Below are positions 6,653 to 14,852 of a stretch of DNA of 64,000 nucleotides, piece by piece; within the stretch, counting starts at the first letter, position 1; each line of letters starts with the position of its first letter. Where the stretch lies: positions 2,619,001-2,683,000 of the forward strand of contig NZ_CP011477.1 of the NCBI RefSeq assembly GCF_001010805.1, written 5' to 3'. The stretch is from Spongiibacter sp. IMCC21906. GTDB lineage: Bacteria > Pseudomonadota > Gammaproteobacteria > Pseudomonadales > Spongiibacteraceae. Both the position numbers and the translations under genes were made by a program. The notes beneath the pieces were generated by a model. That model ran no database searches and was not told the DNA's origin. It was given only the letters and a program-made list of their open reading frames with translations.

Positions 6653-6672
6653 ATTGCGAACAATTATCAATA
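6653..6672. promoter_or_regulatory. Fur-box-like operator
   Basis: The sequence attgcgaacaattatcaata, read on the minus strand as TTGATAATTGTTCGCAA, matches 11 of 14 informative positions of the TGATAATnATTATCA Fur core and resembles the GCGAATnATTATCA style of pseudomonad Fur boxes. It lies about 55-75 bp upstream of the imelysin start, as expected for an iron-repressed promoter of the following operon. Confidence 0.65.
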
Positions 6673-6725
6673 AAACTAGAATGGAAACCCTTATCCATAT
6701 TGCCCCATCCAGCCCGGAGATGTTC

Positions 6726-7976
6726 ATGCGCTTATCGCTTCGCAACGCCCTACTCGTTATTGTCGCCAGCTTGCCGCTTTTTGCTCAAGCAGCCACAAAA
6801 GCAGAAGACAGCGCAGTGGTTACGCATTATGCGGATATGGCGGCGGCCATTTTTGGCGACGCCCATCAACAGGCGCTAAAGCTGCAAGCCAGCATTGATA
6901 CCTTTCTCGCAGCGCCCAGCAAAGAAACACTGCAACAGGCGAAAGCAGCATGGATAGCGGCGCGGGTACCCTATATGCAAAGTGAGGTGTTTCGCTTTGG
7001 CAACCCCGTCGTCGATAACTGGGAAGGTCAAGTAAACTCTTGGCCCTTGGATGAAGGCCTTATTGATTATGTTGCAGAAGACTATGTTTCTGCGCTGGGT
7101 AATATTGGGGCCACGCTTAACATCATCGCCAACCCAAGCATTGATCTCGGCGGCACAGTATTAGATACCACCACACTATCACCTGAGGTCCTTGCTGATC
7201 TCAATGAACTAGGCGGCTCAGAAGCCAATGTAGCCACCGGTTATCATGCCATTGAGTTTTTGTTATGGGGACAAGACCTGCACGGCAATGCCCTTGGTGC
7301 TGGCGAGCGGCCCTACACTGACTATGTAAACGGCGATGACTGCAGTCACGGCCATTGCGAGAGACGCCGCGAATACCTCAGCGCTGTCACCCAATTACTC
7401 ATTAATGATCTGGCAGAAATGAAAACCCAATGGACCGCGAGCAACAAGGGTAATTACCGCGAAACCCTGCTGGAGCTGGATCCAAAACACGCCATTGCCC
7501 GCATGTTTTACGGCATGGGGTCGCTGTCTTTGGGGGAACTCGGCGGCGAACGTATTAAAGTCGCACTAGAAGCCAACTCCTCAGAAGATGAGCACGACTG
7601 TTTTAGCGACAACACCCATTGGGCCCACTACTACGATGGCCTTGGTATTCAAAACGTGTTTCTGGGCCGTTACAAAACCACTGACGGCAAGGAGATCACC
7701 GGACCGTCAGTGCGTGATTACGTCGCTGCACAAAACCCCGAGGCCGCCACCGCGACCGAGCAAGCTCTAAGCCAGTCGATGGCCGCACTAAGCACGTTAG
7801 TAAAAACAGCTGAAGCTGAAGATACCCCACAGAAGTTCGATATGCTGATTGCCGAGGGCAATACCCAGGGCCAAGAGATTCTGGCTGATATTTTGAATGC
7901 ATTGGTTCAACAGACACGTGCCCTGGAAAAAGCGGCAGCAGCCGTTAATATCGACCCCAATCAGCTCGGCTATTAA
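6726..7976 (+). CDS. Imelysin-family iron-regulated periplasmic protein (IrpA-like)
   Basis: A 416-aa secreted protein of the imelysin/peptidase-M75 family, implicated in iron or other metal acquisition in the periplasm or outer membrane. It has a cleavable signal peptide (residues 1 to about 22, ending AQAA). The family GxHxxE motif appears as GYHAIEF at 172-178. The ATG at 6726 is chosen because GGAG lies at the right distance and the signal peptide begins there; the reading frame is open further upstream but crosses the Fur-like box. It is the first of five co-directional genes. Similar imelysin-cytochrome-imelysin-DUF1513 sets exist in Pseudomonas (icmP locus). Confidence 0.85.
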   Translation: MRLSLRNALLVIVASLPLFAQAATKAEDSAVVTHYADMAAAIFGDAHQQALKLQASIDTFLAAPSKETLQQAKAAWIAARVPYMQSEVFRFGNPVVDNWEGQVNSWPLDEGLIDYVAEDYVSALGNIGATLNIIANPSIDLGGTVLDTTTLSPEVLADLNELGGSEANVATGYHAIEFLLWGQDLHGNALGAGERPYTDYVNGDDCSHGHCERRREYLSAVTQLLINDLAEMKTQWTASNKGNYRETLLELDPKHAIARMFYGMGSLSLGELGGERIKVALEANSSEDEHDCFSDNTHWAHYYDGLGIQNVFLGRYKTTDGKEITGPSVRDYVAAQNPEAATATEQALSQSMAALSTLVKTAEAEDTPQKFDMLIAEGNTQGQEILADILNALVQQTRALEKAAAAVNIDPNQLGY

Positions 7977-7990
7977 GGAGGCAGCGACTC

Positions 7991-9424
7991 TTGCCGCCTC
8001 AGCCCACTGCCGCCAGCGCTGCGGCCTCCAAACGGGTAGCACCGCTACGGACAATAGCTGCGGGGCTGACAGTTATTATTGCTCTGCTTGCCTGCGATTC
8101 CCAACCACCGCCCCCCATCCCCGCTGGCTACGGCATTGCCAGCCAAGACCAAAATCTTCTTAGCCGACCTCGCCCCGGACTTAGCCCGGAGCAGCGTTTA
8201 GAATGGAGCGTGGGCCGAAGCTTTGCCATCCAACCTTGGGTAACAGCGCCCACCACTACCACCGCAAGAGATGGCCTGGGTCCGCTGTATAACGCCAACA
8301 GTTGCGCCGCCTGCCACCGCCACAATTTAGGTGGCCAATTACCAGAACACGGCCCCGGCTTAATTTTGCGTTTAAATTCCCCCGGCCCACAACAGAATAA
8401 GAATGTTGCTGCACATAGCAAACTGGGCATTCAACTTCAGGACCGGGCACTGCCCGGAATAAAACCCGAGGGCCGTATTAACTGGCGGGAACAGCGCCAT
8501 CAGGCTGCCGAACACACTCTGCTATACCGGCAATATGGCATTACCGCACCCAGCAACAAGCATTCTGTCTCAGCACGGCTGGCTCCCGCACTGATTGGTC
8601 AGGGTTTAATAGATAGTGTCTCTGATGACGTTCTTATTGCCCTAGCCGACCCAGAAGATAATAACGGCGATGGTATTTCCGGGCGCGTGAATAAAGTTTG
8701 GGACCCCCAGCAAAACCGTTATCGTCCCGGAAAATTTGGCTGGAAGGCCGGGCAAGCCAGTTTAAAACAACAGCTCGCACTGGCCTTTTCTCAAGACCTG
8801 GGGATTCGCTCATCGCTGTTCCCCCATGCGATTTGCCCGGCAAACAGCAACTGCCTGAAAACCGATTCTGAACCACTGGAAATCAACGATAAATTACTTG
8901 AGGCAGTGTCTTTTTATATTGCCAATCTCGCGGTGCCTGCCCCGACACAAATATCTAAAAGTCTGCCTGCCCCTGCAAACCAAGCCAGCCAGACGCTCAC
9001 TTCCCGTCAATCCCAAGCCCTGACCAGCGAACAAATTACAGCCCTGCCAGGCTACCGCGTGTTTACCACACTGGGCTGCAACAGCTGCCATCGGCAGTTC
9101 ATGCAAGGCCGCAATGCCAACGGCGACACCGTTAATTTTCAAATCTTCAGCGACCTATTGCTCCACGACATGGGTGAGCCACTGGCCGACGCTGTGGAAG
9201 AGTTTTCAGCATCTGGCAAAGAATGGCGCACCGCCCCGCTCTGGGGGCTTGGCCTTAAGACCAACAAGGCAGACAATAGCCGCCTGCTACACGATGGCCG
9301 GGCAAAAAACATTCATCAGGCTATTTTATGGCATGGCGGCGAAGCCCAGCAAAGCCAAGATAGCTACCGGGCAATCAGCGCATTTCAACAACAGCAATTA
9401 CTGCAATTTTTACAGGCCCTGTAA
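7991..9424 (+). CDS. Di-heme-type DUF1111 (thiol oxidoreductase-like) lipoprotein cytochrome
   Basis: A 477-aa exported c-type cytochrome of the DUF1111 family. Two covalent heme motifs are present, CAACH at 105-109 and CNSCH at 363-367, with the family LLHDGRA near the C-terminus. A hydrophobic N-terminus ends in the lipobox LLAC (Cys35), so it is probably membrane-anchored in the periplasm. The start is TTG at 7991, supported by AAGGAGG nine bases upstream; no better ATG precedes the signal sequence. It is 14 bp after the first imelysin and overlaps the second by one base. A role in electron transfer for metal redox handling is inferred. Confidence 0.85.
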   Translation: MPPQPTAASAAASKRVAPLRTIAAGLTVIIALLACDSQPPPPIPAGYGIASQDQNLLSRPRPGLSPEQRLEWSVGRSFAIQPWVTAPTTTTARDGLGPLYNANSCAACHRHNLGGQLPEHGPGLILRLNSPGPQQNKNVAAHSKLGIQLQDRALPGIKPEGRINWREQRHQAAEHTLLYRQYGITAPSNKHSVSARLAPALIGQGLIDSVSDDVLIALADPEDNNGDGISGRVNKVWDPQQNRYRPGKFGWKAGQASLKQQLALAFSQDLGIRSSLFPHAICPANSNCLKTDSEPLEINDKLLEAVSFYIANLAVPAPTQISKSLPAPANQASQTLTSRQSQALTSEQITALPGYRVFTTLGCNSCHRQFMQGRNANGDTVNFQIFSDLLLHDMGEPLADAVEEFSASGKEWRTAPLWGLGLKTNKADNSRLLHDGRAKNIHQAILWHGGEAQQSQDSYRAISAFQQQQLLQFLQAL

Positions 9425-10533
9425 TGACACTACTTAAACCTTCACTCTTCCTTGCCACTGTACTTTCAGGCCTCACTTTACTCAGCGCCTGTAGTCCTGC
9501 GCCAGAAAACAAATTGCTCGCCGAAACCACCAGGCTAAGTATTGTGCCCGGCTACCGCGATTTTGCCGACGCCAGCCACCAACTCCGGGAAGCCAGCGAG
9601 CATTTTTGCGCGCAAACCACCGAACAAAATGCGGCCTACCAAACCCTGCGCACAACATGGCAAAACACCGCCACCACGTGGGCCGCCATTCAGCCTTTGC
9701 AATTTGGGCCGTTATTAGTAGACAACCAAGCGTGGAAAATTCAATTTTGGCCAGACCGCAAAAACCTGGTTGCCAGAAAAGTGGAAGCGTTGCTTAAAGG
9801 CGATGAGCCCCTGGATGTAGCACGCATCGAAAAAGCCAGCGTCGTGGCTCAAGGCCTGTCGGCCCTGGAGTATTTATTATTTGACGAAAAAGCCGGGCAA
9901 ATAGACCGCTACAAAACTAGCGACGGCCAGCGTCGCTGCGAGCTTCTTATCGCAACCAGCGCCCATTTGGAGGGCGTCGCCGTGCATTTACACACGGCAT
10001 GGCAAACCGATGGCGGAAACTATGCCGATACCTTTAGTCAACCCGGCAAAAACAACCGCGACTTTCCCGAAAGCAATGTCGCGATTGGCACCTTGCTAGA
10101 CAGCATCGTTTACGGCCTGGAGCTGGTAAAAAGAGACAAGCTAGAACGACCACTGGGCCTAGCCAACAACAAGCCGCAAATTTACCTGCTGGAATGGTGG
10201 CGCAGTCGTTATTCGCTTGAAGCCATTACCGCCAATCTTGCCGCCTTACAGCGGCTTTACAAAGCCGACAGCGGGTACGGTCTGGACGACTACCTTACCC
10301 AGGCCAAAGGCGAGAAAGCACTCGCTGATAAAATCGAGAGGAAATTCGTCGAGGCCCTGAAACTGGCGTCAGAAATTAAAGGGGATTTGTTTACCAGCGC
10401 AAATAATGATGACACCTTGAAAAAAGCGGCGGCCTTGAGTAAAGCGGTCACTGAGCTGGAAATGTTAACTAAAAACGAGTTGCCCGCCGCCCTTGGCGTG
10501 ACCTTAAGCTTTAATTCCAGTGACGGCGATTAA
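9424..10533 (+). CDS. Second imelysin-family lipoprotein
   Basis: A 369-aa imelysin-like protein with a lipoprotein signal (LLSAC, Cys23). It begins TAATG-coupled to the preceding cytochrome gene. The core helix carries GLSALEYLLFDE where the first paralogue has GYHAIEFLLWGQ, so the motif His is replaced by Ser while the Glu is kept. This matches the imelysin-like subfamily found next to DUF1111 proteins in other proteobacteria. The paralogue pair suggests two different periplasmic metal-binding or scaffold roles. Confidence 0.85.
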   Translation: MTLLKPSLFLATVLSGLTLLSACSPAPENKLLAETTRLSIVPGYRDFADASHQLREASEHFCAQTTEQNAAYQTLRTTWQNTATTWAAIQPLQFGPLLVDNQAWKIQFWPDRKNLVARKVEALLKGDEPLDVARIEKASVVAQGLSALEYLLFDEKAGQIDRYKTSDGQRRCELLIATSAHLEGVAVHLHTAWQTDGGNYADTFSQPGKNNRDFPESNVAIGTLLDSIVYGLELVKRDKLERPLGLANNKPQIYLLEWWRSRYSLEAITANLAALQRLYKADSGYGLDDYLTQAKGEKALADKIERKFVEALKLASEIKGDLFTSANNDDTLKKAAALSKAVTELEMLTKNELPAALGVTLSFNSSDGD

Positions 10534-10584
10534 CGCAATGTATCGAGTCACCACTCCAACCCACACAGCAATGTTGTTTTTACT

Positions 10585-11682
10585 ATGAACCGCAGACAGT
10601 TTTTACTCGCCAGCGGCCTGTTCATTACGCTACCGAAAACACTGCTGGCAGAGACGGGCGATTATTCACCGGTGATGAGTGCGAGTCGTTTAGAGAAAGG
10701 GAAATTTCGAATAGGCCAATGGCAAAAAGATGGCTGGGCCACCGCGGTTGACATCCCCCATCGTGGCCACGACAGCTGTGCTCATAGCAAAAACCAAGAG
10801 TTATTGTTTTTCTCTCGACGTCCAGATAGAGAAATTTTTATCCTGGACGCCCGCAACGGACAGCCAAAACAACAGGTGATGGCTCAAGACGGCTACCACT
10901 ACTACGGTCACGGCTGCCTCGATGCCCAGGAGCGCTTTTTATACACCACCGAAAATCATGTTGCCGGTGACGGCCAAGGGGCTATTGGTGTTTACGACAG
11001 CCAAGATAACTACCGGTTTGTAAAACACCTTTCCTGCGCCGGAATCGGACCTCATCAGCTGGCGATGATGCCAGACAACAAAACCTTGGTAGTGGCCGTA
11101 GGCGGGATAAAAACCTTGCCTCAACACGGACGCGACACCCTGAATTTTGACAGCATGGCTCCCGCACTGAATTACATCGATATCGATTCCGGCGAATTAC
11201 TAGAGAGCCAAGCCTCGCCCCATCAACACCTAAGCCTGCGTCATCTCGATGTCGGCTCCCAGGGTCTGGTCGTCGTTGGTGGCCAATATCAAGGAAGCTT
11301 ACCCGCACCATTACCCTTGGTATATCAACATCAGCGCGGTAAACCTCTACAAGCAATGGATACTGGCGATGTGCCATTACGATTAAATAAAAGCTATGTA
11401 GCCAGTATCAGCATCGACAGCCTGCAGCACTATGCCGTCAGCACCTGCCCCCGGGACAATACCGTCTGTTTGTGGAATCTTGCTAATGGACAACTGCAAC
11501 AGAGCTTTCGTCTACTCGACTGCGCGGGTGCCGTGTACGATGCGCGCTATCAACAGTTTATTCTCAGCAACGGCAGAGGCCAGTTAATGGCTTTGTCGCC
11601 GGGTAGCCCTGCACTGCGGCCATTGGCTTACGCCAGTGGTATTCACTGGGATAATCACTTACGACTTGCACAACCCTCATAG
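10585..11682 (+). CDS. DUF1513 beta-propeller-like exported protein
   Basis: A 365-aa protein of the DUF1513 family, of unknown biochemical function. The N-terminus MNRRQFLLASGLFITL carries a twin-arginine-type signal (RRQFLL), pointing to export in a folded, possibly cofactor-bound, state. Repeated GHD/GHGC-type segments and a WD40-like repeat pattern suggest a beta-propeller. It is the fourth gene of the imelysin operon, 51 bp after the second imelysin, and is followed 8 bp later by the multicopper oxidase. Confidence 0.8.
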   Translation: MNRRQFLLASGLFITLPKTLLAETGDYSPVMSASRLEKGKFRIGQWQKDGWATAVDIPHRGHDSCAHSKNQELLFFSRRPDREIFILDARNGQPKQQVMAQDGYHYYGHGCLDAQERFLYTTENHVAGDGQGAIGVYDSQDNYRFVKHLSCAGIGPHQLAMMPDNKTLVVAVGGIKTLPQHGRDTLNFDSMAPALNYIDIDSGELLESQASPHQHLSLRHLDVGSQGLVVVGGQYQGSLPAPLPLVYQHQRGKPLQAMDTGDVPLRLNKSYVASISIDSLQHYAVSTCPRDNTVCLWNLANGQLQQSFRLLDCAGAVYDARYQQFILSNGRGQLMALSPGSPALRPLAYASGIHWDNHLRLAQPS

Positions 11683-11690
11683 GACATAAT

Positions 11691-13079
11691 ATGCAACGCC
11701 GCACGCTTATGAAATCTGCCCTGCTTGCTGGTGTTAGTGCGAGCTTGCCGCGCTTCAGTCTGGCAATGGCCTCGGCCGATAAAGTCAGCAAAAATTCCTA
11801 CCACTATATTTTGACCGCCGAAGCGGCCCAGTCTGAAATTGTACCAGGCACCACATCTGATATTTTAGGCTTTGATGGCGCATTTCCGGCGCCGATAATT
11901 CGCGCCAAACAGGGCGAACCGCTACGGGTTGAATTTCACAACAAACTAGACAAGGCCACCACCATCCACTGGCACGGCATTCGTCTGCCTAATGAAATGG
12001 ATGGGGTGCCGTGGTTGACACAAAAGCCCATCCAGCCCGGTGAGCGCTTTGTTTACGAATTTACGCCGCCCGATGCTGGCACCTTCTGGTATCACCCCCA
12101 TATGCACAGCATAGAGCAACTGAGCATGGGACTGGTTGGCGCGCTGATTATTGAAGAGCGAGAACCCCAAGGCTATCACGACGTTATTTTAGGAATGAAA
12201 GATTGGCGCCTAAAACAAGACGGGAGTTACTTGCCACTGTCTCTCCCGCGAGAAGCGTTTCGCGCTGGCACCCTGGGCACCGTGGCCACCATTAATGGTC
12301 TGCAAAAACCGGTAATAGAAGTTCCCGCCGGTAAACTGCTGCGATTGCGATTTTTAAATATGGACAACACCCGAGTTTTTAATTTGAGCTTAGGTAAAAC
12401 CCAGTCGGACATTTTGGCGATTGATGGCAGCCCGCTAGCCAAAACAGAACCATTACATGTCGCCCCTACCGGCGCCGGTATGCGTTTAGATGTCGCACTG
12501 CAAGCACCACAAAAAGTAGGGGAAGAAATTCCTGTTTACGATATGAAAGGTCGCTTTGGCAGTGAAATTGCCAGACTGAAAACCGTTGCAAGCTCCAGCA
12601 GCTCTAAAAAACCCGCACCAATAAAAGCACTGCCCGCCAATCCCATTCCCAAGGCAGATTTGGCGACGGCAGAACAGCTGAATTTTGTTTTTGAGTGGCA
12701 AGGCGCGCTATCCCCCAGTAGTAAGCAGGGCAAAGTCGATCACAGTTTTTGGCTAATTAATCGCCGGGCGTGGGAAGGCGCAAGCCCCCAAGGGCTTCCC
12801 GCGCCCTTAGCCAAACTTGAGCAAGGTAAAAGCTATGTGGTGGACTTGCACAATGCCACGCCCCACCATCATCCCATCCACCTGCACGGATTAATTTTTA
12901 CGGTGATGAAGTCGGACAAACGGGAAATTACCCCCTATGAAACCGACACTATTTTGATGGAAAAAAACGAGCGTGCCCAGATCGCCTTTGTTGCCGATAA
13001 CCCCGGCAAATGGATGTTTCATTGCCATGTCATCGAGCATATGAAAACGGGCTTAATGGGCTATATCGAAATCAGCTAG
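11691..13079 (+). CDS. Tat-exported multicopper oxidase (possible ferroxidase/cuproxidase)
   Basis: A 462-aa three-domain multicopper oxidase. The Tat signal is MQRRTLMKSALLAG. All copper-site motifs are present: HWHG (93-96), WYHPHMH (133-139), HPIHLHG in the C-terminal domain, and HCHVIEHM (444-451), which holds the type-1 Cys and His and a Met axial-ligand position. It oxidises its substrate while reducing O2 to water in the periplasm. The location as last gene of a Fur-box-led imelysin operon suggests Fe(II) or Cu(I) as substrate, but laccase-like activity cannot be excluded. A long Met-rich CueO-type insert is not seen. Confidence 0.9.
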   Translation: MQRRTLMKSALLAGVSASLPRFSLAMASADKVSKNSYHYILTAEAAQSEIVPGTTSDILGFDGAFPAPIIRAKQGEPLRVEFHNKLDKATTIHWHGIRLPNEMDGVPWLTQKPIQPGERFVYEFTPPDAGTFWYHPHMHSIEQLSMGLVGALIIEEREPQGYHDVILGMKDWRLKQDGSYLPLSLPREAFRAGTLGTVATINGLQKPVIEVPAGKLLRLRFLNMDNTRVFNLSLGKTQSDILAIDGSPLAKTEPLHVAPTGAGMRLDVALQAPQKVGEEIPVYDMKGRFGSEIARLKTVASSSSSKKPAPIKALPANPIPKADLATAEQLNFVFEWQGALSPSSKQGKVDHSFWLINRRAWEGASPQGLPAPLAKLEQGKSYVVDLHNATPHHHPIHLHGLIFTVMKSDKREITPYETDTILMEKNERAQIAFVADNPGKWMFHCHVIEHMKTGLMGYIEIS

Positions 13080-13097
13080 CCCTTTGCCAGGCTAGCT
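13074..13097. terminator. Inverted repeat spanning two convergent stop codons
   Basis: An 8-bp stem (agctagcc / ggctagct) with an 8-nt loop contains the stop codon of the multicopper oxidase in one arm and that of the convergent WS/DGAT gene in the other. It may act as a bidirectional end signal, but no T-tract follows on either strand. Confidence 0.35.
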
Positions 13098-14633
13098 AGC
13101 GCTGGAATGATCTTTTAACGTCACGAGCTTGCTCGGGGCTGTAGTGTTTAGTTCGCCCTTTTTATTGCCCGTAGCTCTTGCTGCTTTTGCTGACGCGGGC
13201 TTTTGTTCTGCAGCCAAAGTCGGCTTTTTCAGCAGCGACAACAGCTCTTGATAGGCCTCTTCAAGACACTCGCGGTAAAACTCAGGATCGGGCATGGCCT
13301 CTCTGTTGGCCGATACCGTTACCGTAACCACATCTGCCGCGCTGTAAAAGAAATGAGATAAGCCCACACCGGAGCTTAATGCCCCCAAGCCGTAAAAACG
13401 TAGCAGGCTGGCCCCAGCGCAATAAAGCGGAAAACGGGGGCCAGAAACCTGAGAAACATAACTGCTAATGCCCATTGGCAGAAAACGCATAGCCCGCCGC
13501 TGTATATACGCATTTACAAGTGGCCGACTTAGCGCAGGGGAGAACACACCGCTGAGGTAACGGCTATTTGCCAGCGGAGAATATTCGGCAAACTCCGTAG
13601 CGCCATCAACACCGTCTTTAATTCGCATCAAACGCAGGGCGGGATCACTGATTTCAGAATAAATGGGCGTCAAGGCCAAACTCCGTTGGCCGCCCTCTGC
13701 TGCATTTCGACGATCACCCGCCCCACACATTAACGCCACCGCAAGACTTTCTTGGGGAAGTTCTTGATGATGTGACAAATAGCGCCGCAATGCCCCCGCA
13801 ACCAACGCGATACAGACATGCTCAGTCTTCAAACCATACAGTACTTTGAGTTTTTTCAGCTCCGTCAAAGAAAACTCCGTTGCCGCCATACTTCGACAAG
13901 AGCCAACCAGGGTATTAAATCGGGTTTTTGGTGCCCCTAATGGGGGCATGGCCAGTACATTACGCCCCAAACCCAACGCGGTTTTACCCAGACCCTTCAG
14001 CACCGAATAGCTCCCCGAAAGCAACTTAAGCGCACTACCCGTCGAGTGCCCCGCTGCCGCATAAAGCAACTCCAAACCACTTGGCGCAGGAGTGATTTGC
14101 TCTGTTCTGGGACCCGGCGTAACAGCCTCCGGATCGGCTTCAAGGTCATGTAACACCGCCATAATTGAATTATGACCAGCCCCTTCAATCAGCGCGCTGT
14201 GCATCTTGGTATAAATGGCAAAGCCATTTTTGGGTACCCCCGGAATACCATCCACGCCTTCGATGATATACGTCACCCAAAGTGGTTTGCTCATATTTAA
14301 AGGCTGGGAATGCAGCTGGGAAATCAGAATGCAGAGTTGACGCCAATCACCAGGCTTGGGCAAGGCGATATGACGAACATGAAACTCAATATCAAAGTTG
14401 CTATCCAGGGTCCAATACGGGCGGTCTACACCCGCAGGCACCCGTAACAGAGAAGAGCGAAAAATATCGTGCTTCTCCAGCCGGCGTTCGAAGTTTGATA
14501 GCACCTTGTTGAACTGTAGCTTTTTATCCGGCGATGTAATGGGATCATATATCCCCAAGCCACCAACATGTTGTGGTGTATTGGGATGCTCAAGATTAAT
14601 AAACGCACTGTCAAAAACGCCCAGCTGCTTCAT
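13092..14633 (-). CDS. Wax ester synthase/diacylglycerol acyltransferase-like protein (divergent)
   Basis: A 513-aa member of the WS/DGAT family, which normally esterifies acyl-CoA to fatty alcohol or diacylglycerol at the membrane to make storage lipid. The ATG at 14631-14633 is preferred because GGGAAAG precedes it and MKQLGVFDSAFI is the family start. PLWVTYIIEG, SGPRFPLYCAGA and a PDPEF segment near the C-terminus are recognisable. The catalytic HHxxxDG is altered to MHSALIEG (144-151): the second His is kept, the first is Met and the Asp is Glu. The usual ND motif before ALCAGALRRYL reads EHVCIALVAGALRRYL. Activity or specificity may therefore differ from AtfA-type enzymes. Confidence 0.85.
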   Translation of the reverse strand: MKQLGVFDSAFINLEHPNTPQHVGGLGIYDPITSPDKKLQFNKVLSNFERRLEKHDIFRSSLLRVPAGVDRPYWTLDSNFDIEFHVRHIALPKPGDWRQLCILISQLHSQPLNMSKPLWVTYIIEGVDGIPGVPKNGFAIYTKMHSALIEGAGHNSIMAVLHDLEADPEAVTPGPRTEQITPAPSGLELLYAAAGHSTGSALKLLSGSYSVLKGLGKTALGLGRNVLAMPPLGAPKTRFNTLVGSCRSMAATEFSLTELKKLKVLYGLKTEHVCIALVAGALRRYLSHHQELPQESLAVALMCGAGDRRNAAEGGQRSLALTPIYSEISDPALRLMRIKDGVDGATEFAEYSPLANSRYLSGVFSPALSRPLVNAYIQRRAMRFLPMGISSYVSQVSGPRFPLYCAGASLLRFYGLGALSSGVGLSHFFYSAADVVTVTVSANREAMPDPEFYRECLEEAYQELLSLLKKPTLAAEQKPASAKAARATGNKKGELNTTAPSKLVTLKDHSSAS

Positions 14634-14852
14634 GTTCTTTCCCTGCCTTTTTATCATTGGCTACAAATTCAGTAGGAAAAGACAGAATAGACCAGTTAAT
14701 GCTGCGGAGACGTTCAGAGCATCACAAAAATTTGATCCAAGCCTTAAAGTCTTATTCCCAGAGTACAGGGAATAAATGAAGCAACTTACACGCCATTTTT
14801 AAATAGTATTACGAAGGCGCAGGGGCGGCAGTAAGCGGTATCTAATAAAAGC

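Follow-up and report, generated by a model that had tools for sequence, protein, structure and literature searches.

Imelysins have been reclassified from peptidases to iron-uptake proteins. A known set that contains them and deals with iron beyond the inner membrane is the four-gene locus PA4370-PA4373 of P. aeruginosa, which like its V. cholerae equivalent is Fur-regulated (PMC3143127), and VC1264, VC1265 and VC1266-7 are among the differentially expressed iron-related genes of the IurV study (PMC7600106). The locus described here, from Spongiibacter sp. IMCC21906 (family Spongiibacteraceae), has the same two imelysin subfamilies, di-heme DUF1111 protein and DUF1513 protein in the same order as PA4370-PA4373 and VC1264-VC1267, but unlike these operons it includes a gene for an oxidase. 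The oxidase falls in one three-domain, Tat-exported subfamily with Pseudomonas PA3768 and the P. thermotolerans laccase 6vow, at about 45-50% identity. These two, however, are unlinked to imelysin genes and are described only as laccase or metallo-oxidoreductase; PMC6085387 lists PA3768, a metallo-oxidoreductase, among the Tat substrates.

Two kinds of known iron systems offer partial parallels. EfeUOB and EfeM likewise pair an imelysin-domain iron protein of the periplasm with a redox partner that carries heme, whereas the operon here has no Ftr1-type permease and its heme protein is a di-heme DHOR rather than the DyP-type peroxidase EfeB. An imelysin-domain search of the genome ruled out identity with EfeUOB: the only two imelysin-domain proteins are both encoded in the operon and a cupredoxin domain was found in neither, so that EfeO is absent, and the contrast with EfeUOB drawn in the preliminary description of this DNA holds. 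Fet3p-Ftr1p and P. aeruginosa PcoA resemble the present case in that a multicopper oxidase is proposed for iron uptake; PcoA is a ferroxidase needed in iron acquisition according to the citation of Huston 2002 in PMC7922089. Both are nevertheless of other oxidase subfamilies, and an Ftr1-type permease gene is not part of the operon here.

Results

Anatomy of the locus

All positions refer to the window, the whole stretch of 64,000 nucleotides that was analysed. Five plus-strand genes, imeA, dhor, imeB, DUF1513 and mco in that order, form one co-directional run (6726-13079). Neighbouring genes are spaced by -1 to 51 bp, with an overlap between dhor and imeB and a gap of 8 bp between DUF1513 and mco. 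Open reading frames and Pfam matches agree with the five-gene set, order and strand first reported, and the imelysin motifs, DUF1111, DUF1513 and gene order all match the icmP-type locus that had been recognized in the first four genes. Judged from the sequence, we regard the five-gene anatomy and the membership of the oxidase in the operon as nearly certain. A promoter and terminator scan gave similar numbers of sites for the region and for shuffled sequence, and is thus neutral on a single transcript. On the minus strand a wax ester synthase/diacylglycerol acyltransferase gene (13092-14657) lies convergent with mco.

The first gene, imeA (6726-7976, plus strand; PF09375, 1.7e-85), encodes an imelysin with a Sec signal that matches the ICMP structure 7xrx at 1.7e-134 and whose GxHxxE motif (G172, H174, E177) is invariant in an alignment of relatives. 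The second imelysin, imeB (9424-10533, plus strand; PF09375, 1e-48), is a lipoprotein with the lipobox LSAC and has IPPA (3pf0, 9.4e-17) as its best structure match; it carries the variant GxxxxE, lacking the His, with G144 and E149 invariant among its aligned relatives. The two motifs match those of the ICMP (PA4370-type) and PA4372/IPPA subfamilies to which the proteins are respectively assigned.

Between them dhor (7991-9424, plus strand; PF06537, 7.5e-50) starts with a TTG preceded by AAGGAGG and encodes a di-heme DHOR/DUF1111 lipoprotein (lipobox LLAC) with two CxxCH motifs, CAACH at residues 105-109 and CNSCH at 363-367, both invariant in the alignment. Its predicted structure has a mean pLDDT of 73.5 and gave weak fold matches only, to bacterial di-heme cytochrome c peroxidases. 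The DUF1513 protein (10585-11682, plus strand; PF07433, 1.2e-84) has an N-terminal twin-arginine signal, MNRRQFLL, and is confidently predicted to fold as a seven-bladed beta-propeller (AlphaFold pLDDT 93, propeller matches with Z of about 28-31). Its many structural matches, among them the propeller part of nitrous oxide reductase and hydrazine synthase, carry little functional information, and a literature search found no paper naming DUF1513.

The fifth gene, mco (11691-13079, plus strand; Cu-oxidase_3 1.9e-43, Cu-oxidase_2 8.5e-32), encodes a multicopper oxidase of 462 aa with the N-terminal twin-arginine signal MQRRTLMK and three cupredoxin domains. All T1/T2/T3 copper motifs are present and complete (HWHG, WYHPH, HPIHLHG, HCHVIEH), and the motif columns are invariant in 14 aligned relatives. 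A profile search matched 6vow/6vox at about 1e-150, and the nearest solved relatives, 6vow and 4f7k, are described as laccases. The residue at C445+10, which we take to be the type-1 axial ligand position of CueO-type enzymes, is Leu, and Phe in one aligned relative. Leu or Phe at the axial position is typical of high-potential laccases, and the Leu suggests that the type-1 copper site is of high potential. An acidic iron site like that of Fet3 was not identified in mco. Assignment to CueO (151 bits against a curated cut-off of 525) or to CopA (168 against 479) was rejected. Three other oxidases are present in the same genome, in open frames of 616-641 aa.

A conserved Fur-like box precedes the operon

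A Fur-like box, TGCGAACAATTATCA, lies upstream of imeA at 6655-6669 on the plus strand. Since it occupies this position the TTG at 6654 is implausible as a start, and the beginning of gene 1, formerly put at 6653, was corrected to the ATG at 6726 (or 6720). The box itself was borne out: 18 relatives keep it in front of imeA, as TGCGAATCATTATCA or near variants, and in the Spongiibacteraceae genomes examined it sits 62 to 125 bp 5' of the imelysin start. In 18/19 genomes, counting the window, no 7-1-7 match within 10 kb scores above it. Across the 3.48-Mb genome a degenerate pattern of the box matches just four sites, against one for the same pattern reversed as a control.

A perfect Fur-type palindrome in the same genome (G000:C1:837125; L064:1626) stands just upstream of a gene for an FbpA-type protein, followed by an ABC permease. 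The best solved relatives of the FbpA-type protein are Fe(3+)-binding proteins (7li0, 3.9e-109), and the pair is a candidate inner-membrane partner of the operon. That another site of the pattern fronts such genes supports the reading of the boxes as Fur sites, and the operon is putatively Fur-controlled. Two further perfect palindromes of this type in the genome (L065:1796-2398 and L066:1867-3473) lie upstream of frames of 158 aa and 461 aa without a Pfam or NCBIfam match.

The oxidase across genomes

The five genes were found in order in 16/18 genomes of the genus (its own included) and in 3/3 of the sister genus. All five also stand in order in two genomes of another family (G049 and G087, family f30), and all are present in a genome of family f46 (G072) where imeA is cut at the contig end. 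In a genome of family f18 (G078) the run is dhor-imeB-DUF1513-mco and the upstream gene reads as gshA, not imeA. Four genomes of family f28 (L150, L151, L152, L153) have mco on the opposite strand, overlapping DUF1513 tail-to-tail. A reduced locus was seen in G004, of the same genus (L154:5239-9033), which retains imeA, imeB and mco together with the box and the neighbouring gene upstream, but has neither dhor nor DUF1513 at the locus; other DHOR and DUF1513 genes occur elsewhere in that genome, the DHOR being a different one. A further genome (G010) has imelysin and DHOR together and neither an mco-type oxidase nor DUF1513. G004 has lost dhor and DUF1513 from the locus and G078 has no imeA there, so that by gene content imeB and mco are the pair that the whole linked group has in common as its core.

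Outside the imelysin locus, oxidases 45-51% identical occur in Pseudomonas, Vibrio, Salinivibrio and Oceanospirillum. A Fur box in front of the unlinked oxidases would have tied them to iron as well, but a clear one is generally lacking and none was found consistently. In a class-wide genome sample the number of oxidases was too low to inform.

Co-occurrence was counted in 244 genomes of the order, with the oxidase called at E <= 1e-100. DUF1513 was present in all 36 genomes with the oxidase (36/36), compared with 91/244 overall (Fisher p 1.8e-18 by genome and 6.5e-6 by genus, both uncorrected for phylogeny). In 13 of the 36 the oxidase is in tandem with DUF1513 and in 4 convergent with it; in 1 (G004) it lies in the imelysin operon, and in 18 it is unlinked. 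The oxidase tree gathers every tandem case in one clade (support 100/100), and a tree of the four other genes, with the oxidase left out, gives the same linked group beside f28, with a support of 90 for the tandem cases. From this agreement of the two trees it is most likely that the oxidase was acquired a single time and has been passed on with the operon since.

Discussion

The comparison of genomes bears directly on whether mco is part of the set at all. The preliminary description had allowed that a survey might show the oxidase to be next to the other four genes by chance. A relative of mco does lie elsewhere in Pseudomonas, Vibrio and Oceanospirillum, yet tandem linkage in four families and convergent linkage in a fifth, the complete co-occurrence with DUF1513 and the congruent trees leave adjacency by chance alone extremely improbable. 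Several bacterial families have kept the oxidase together with the set, so that it is not a chance neighbour, and on this comparative evidence it is a genuine and stable fifth member of the operon. The best explanation of the gene orders and trees is that one lineage recruited a multicopper oxidase into a known four-gene imelysin locus. A literature search found no paper on imelysin together with laccase, and titles and abstracts of the literature with both imelysin and multicopper oxidase mentioned no such locus.

Taking P. aeruginosa PcoA as a model, we propose that mco is a periplasmic ferroxidase working for the imelysins and for an ABC importer of ferric iron, a reading to which we give a probability of roughly 45%. 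Under iron starvation the five proteins would be made and exported, and mco would use O2 to convert periplasmic Fe(II) to Fe(III). The imelysins would bind and hold the iron, dhor and the DUF1513 propeller would assist in redox chemistry or docking, and Fe(III) would be handed to a ferric ABC importer such as the FbpA-type protein and permease behind the Fur palindrome. The scheme would resemble Fet3-Ftr1 with an ABC importer in place of the permease partner. Several observations speak against a ferroxidase: the description of 6vow and 4f7k as laccases, the axial Leu as in high-potential laccases, the lack of an identified Fet3-like acidic iron site, and the general lack of a clear Fur box in front of the unlinked oxidases.

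The metal could instead be copper. If iron scarcity raised metal import, mco might oxidise toxic periplasmic Cu(I) and so spare the imelysins from mismetallation, as the multicopper oxidases CueO and PcoA act on Cu(I) and the imelysin-fold protein Algp7 was crystallised with Cu2+ (PMC9174327). We consider this unlikely given that mco scores far under the CopA and CueO cut-offs, that it does not reach the length of CueO and has no Met-rich insert when aligned, that the three other oxidases of the genome could serve copper, and that the promoter box is Fur-like. The laccase descriptions of the nearest solved structures and the axial Leu or Phe would fit a laccase-type enzyme whose substrate is an organic ligand of iron, a catechol or another siderophore-like compound, and whose action leaves the freed iron to be caught by the imelysins; the operon, however, has no gene for siderophore biosynthesis or a siderophore receptor, and we judge this reading unlikely. 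The shared operon and the weak likeness of the dhor model to di-heme cytochrome c peroxidases would also allow mco to act as electron or oxygen partner of dhor in a relay aimed at a cofactor or protein, in the manner of MauG, and not at free metal. That G004 keeps mco with the imelysins after dhor has left the locus makes such a relay quite improbable, even though that genome has a different DHOR elsewhere.

Within the ferroxidase reading, the oxidase fixed in the operon and co-occurring when unlinked would give imelysin function a concrete chemical step, the oxidation of Fe(II), and would predict a place in this pathway for PA3768 and its relatives in Pseudomonas. A further proposal, which we regard as rather doubtful, is that the core of the iron route consists of the multicopper oxidase and the imelysin pair, with dhor and the propeller dispensable and Fe(III) passed to the ABC importer. 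If this were true the operon would represent a bacterial counterpart to yeast oxidative iron uptake, minus Ftr1, and the unlinked PA3768-type oxidases of Pseudomonas together with the related ones of Vibrio would belong to this system without having been recognised as such. At many Pseudomonas loci the oxidase adjoins a gene reading as tadA, and from the tadA neighbourhood on the PAO1 map we presume that the Pseudomonas oxidase is PA3768.
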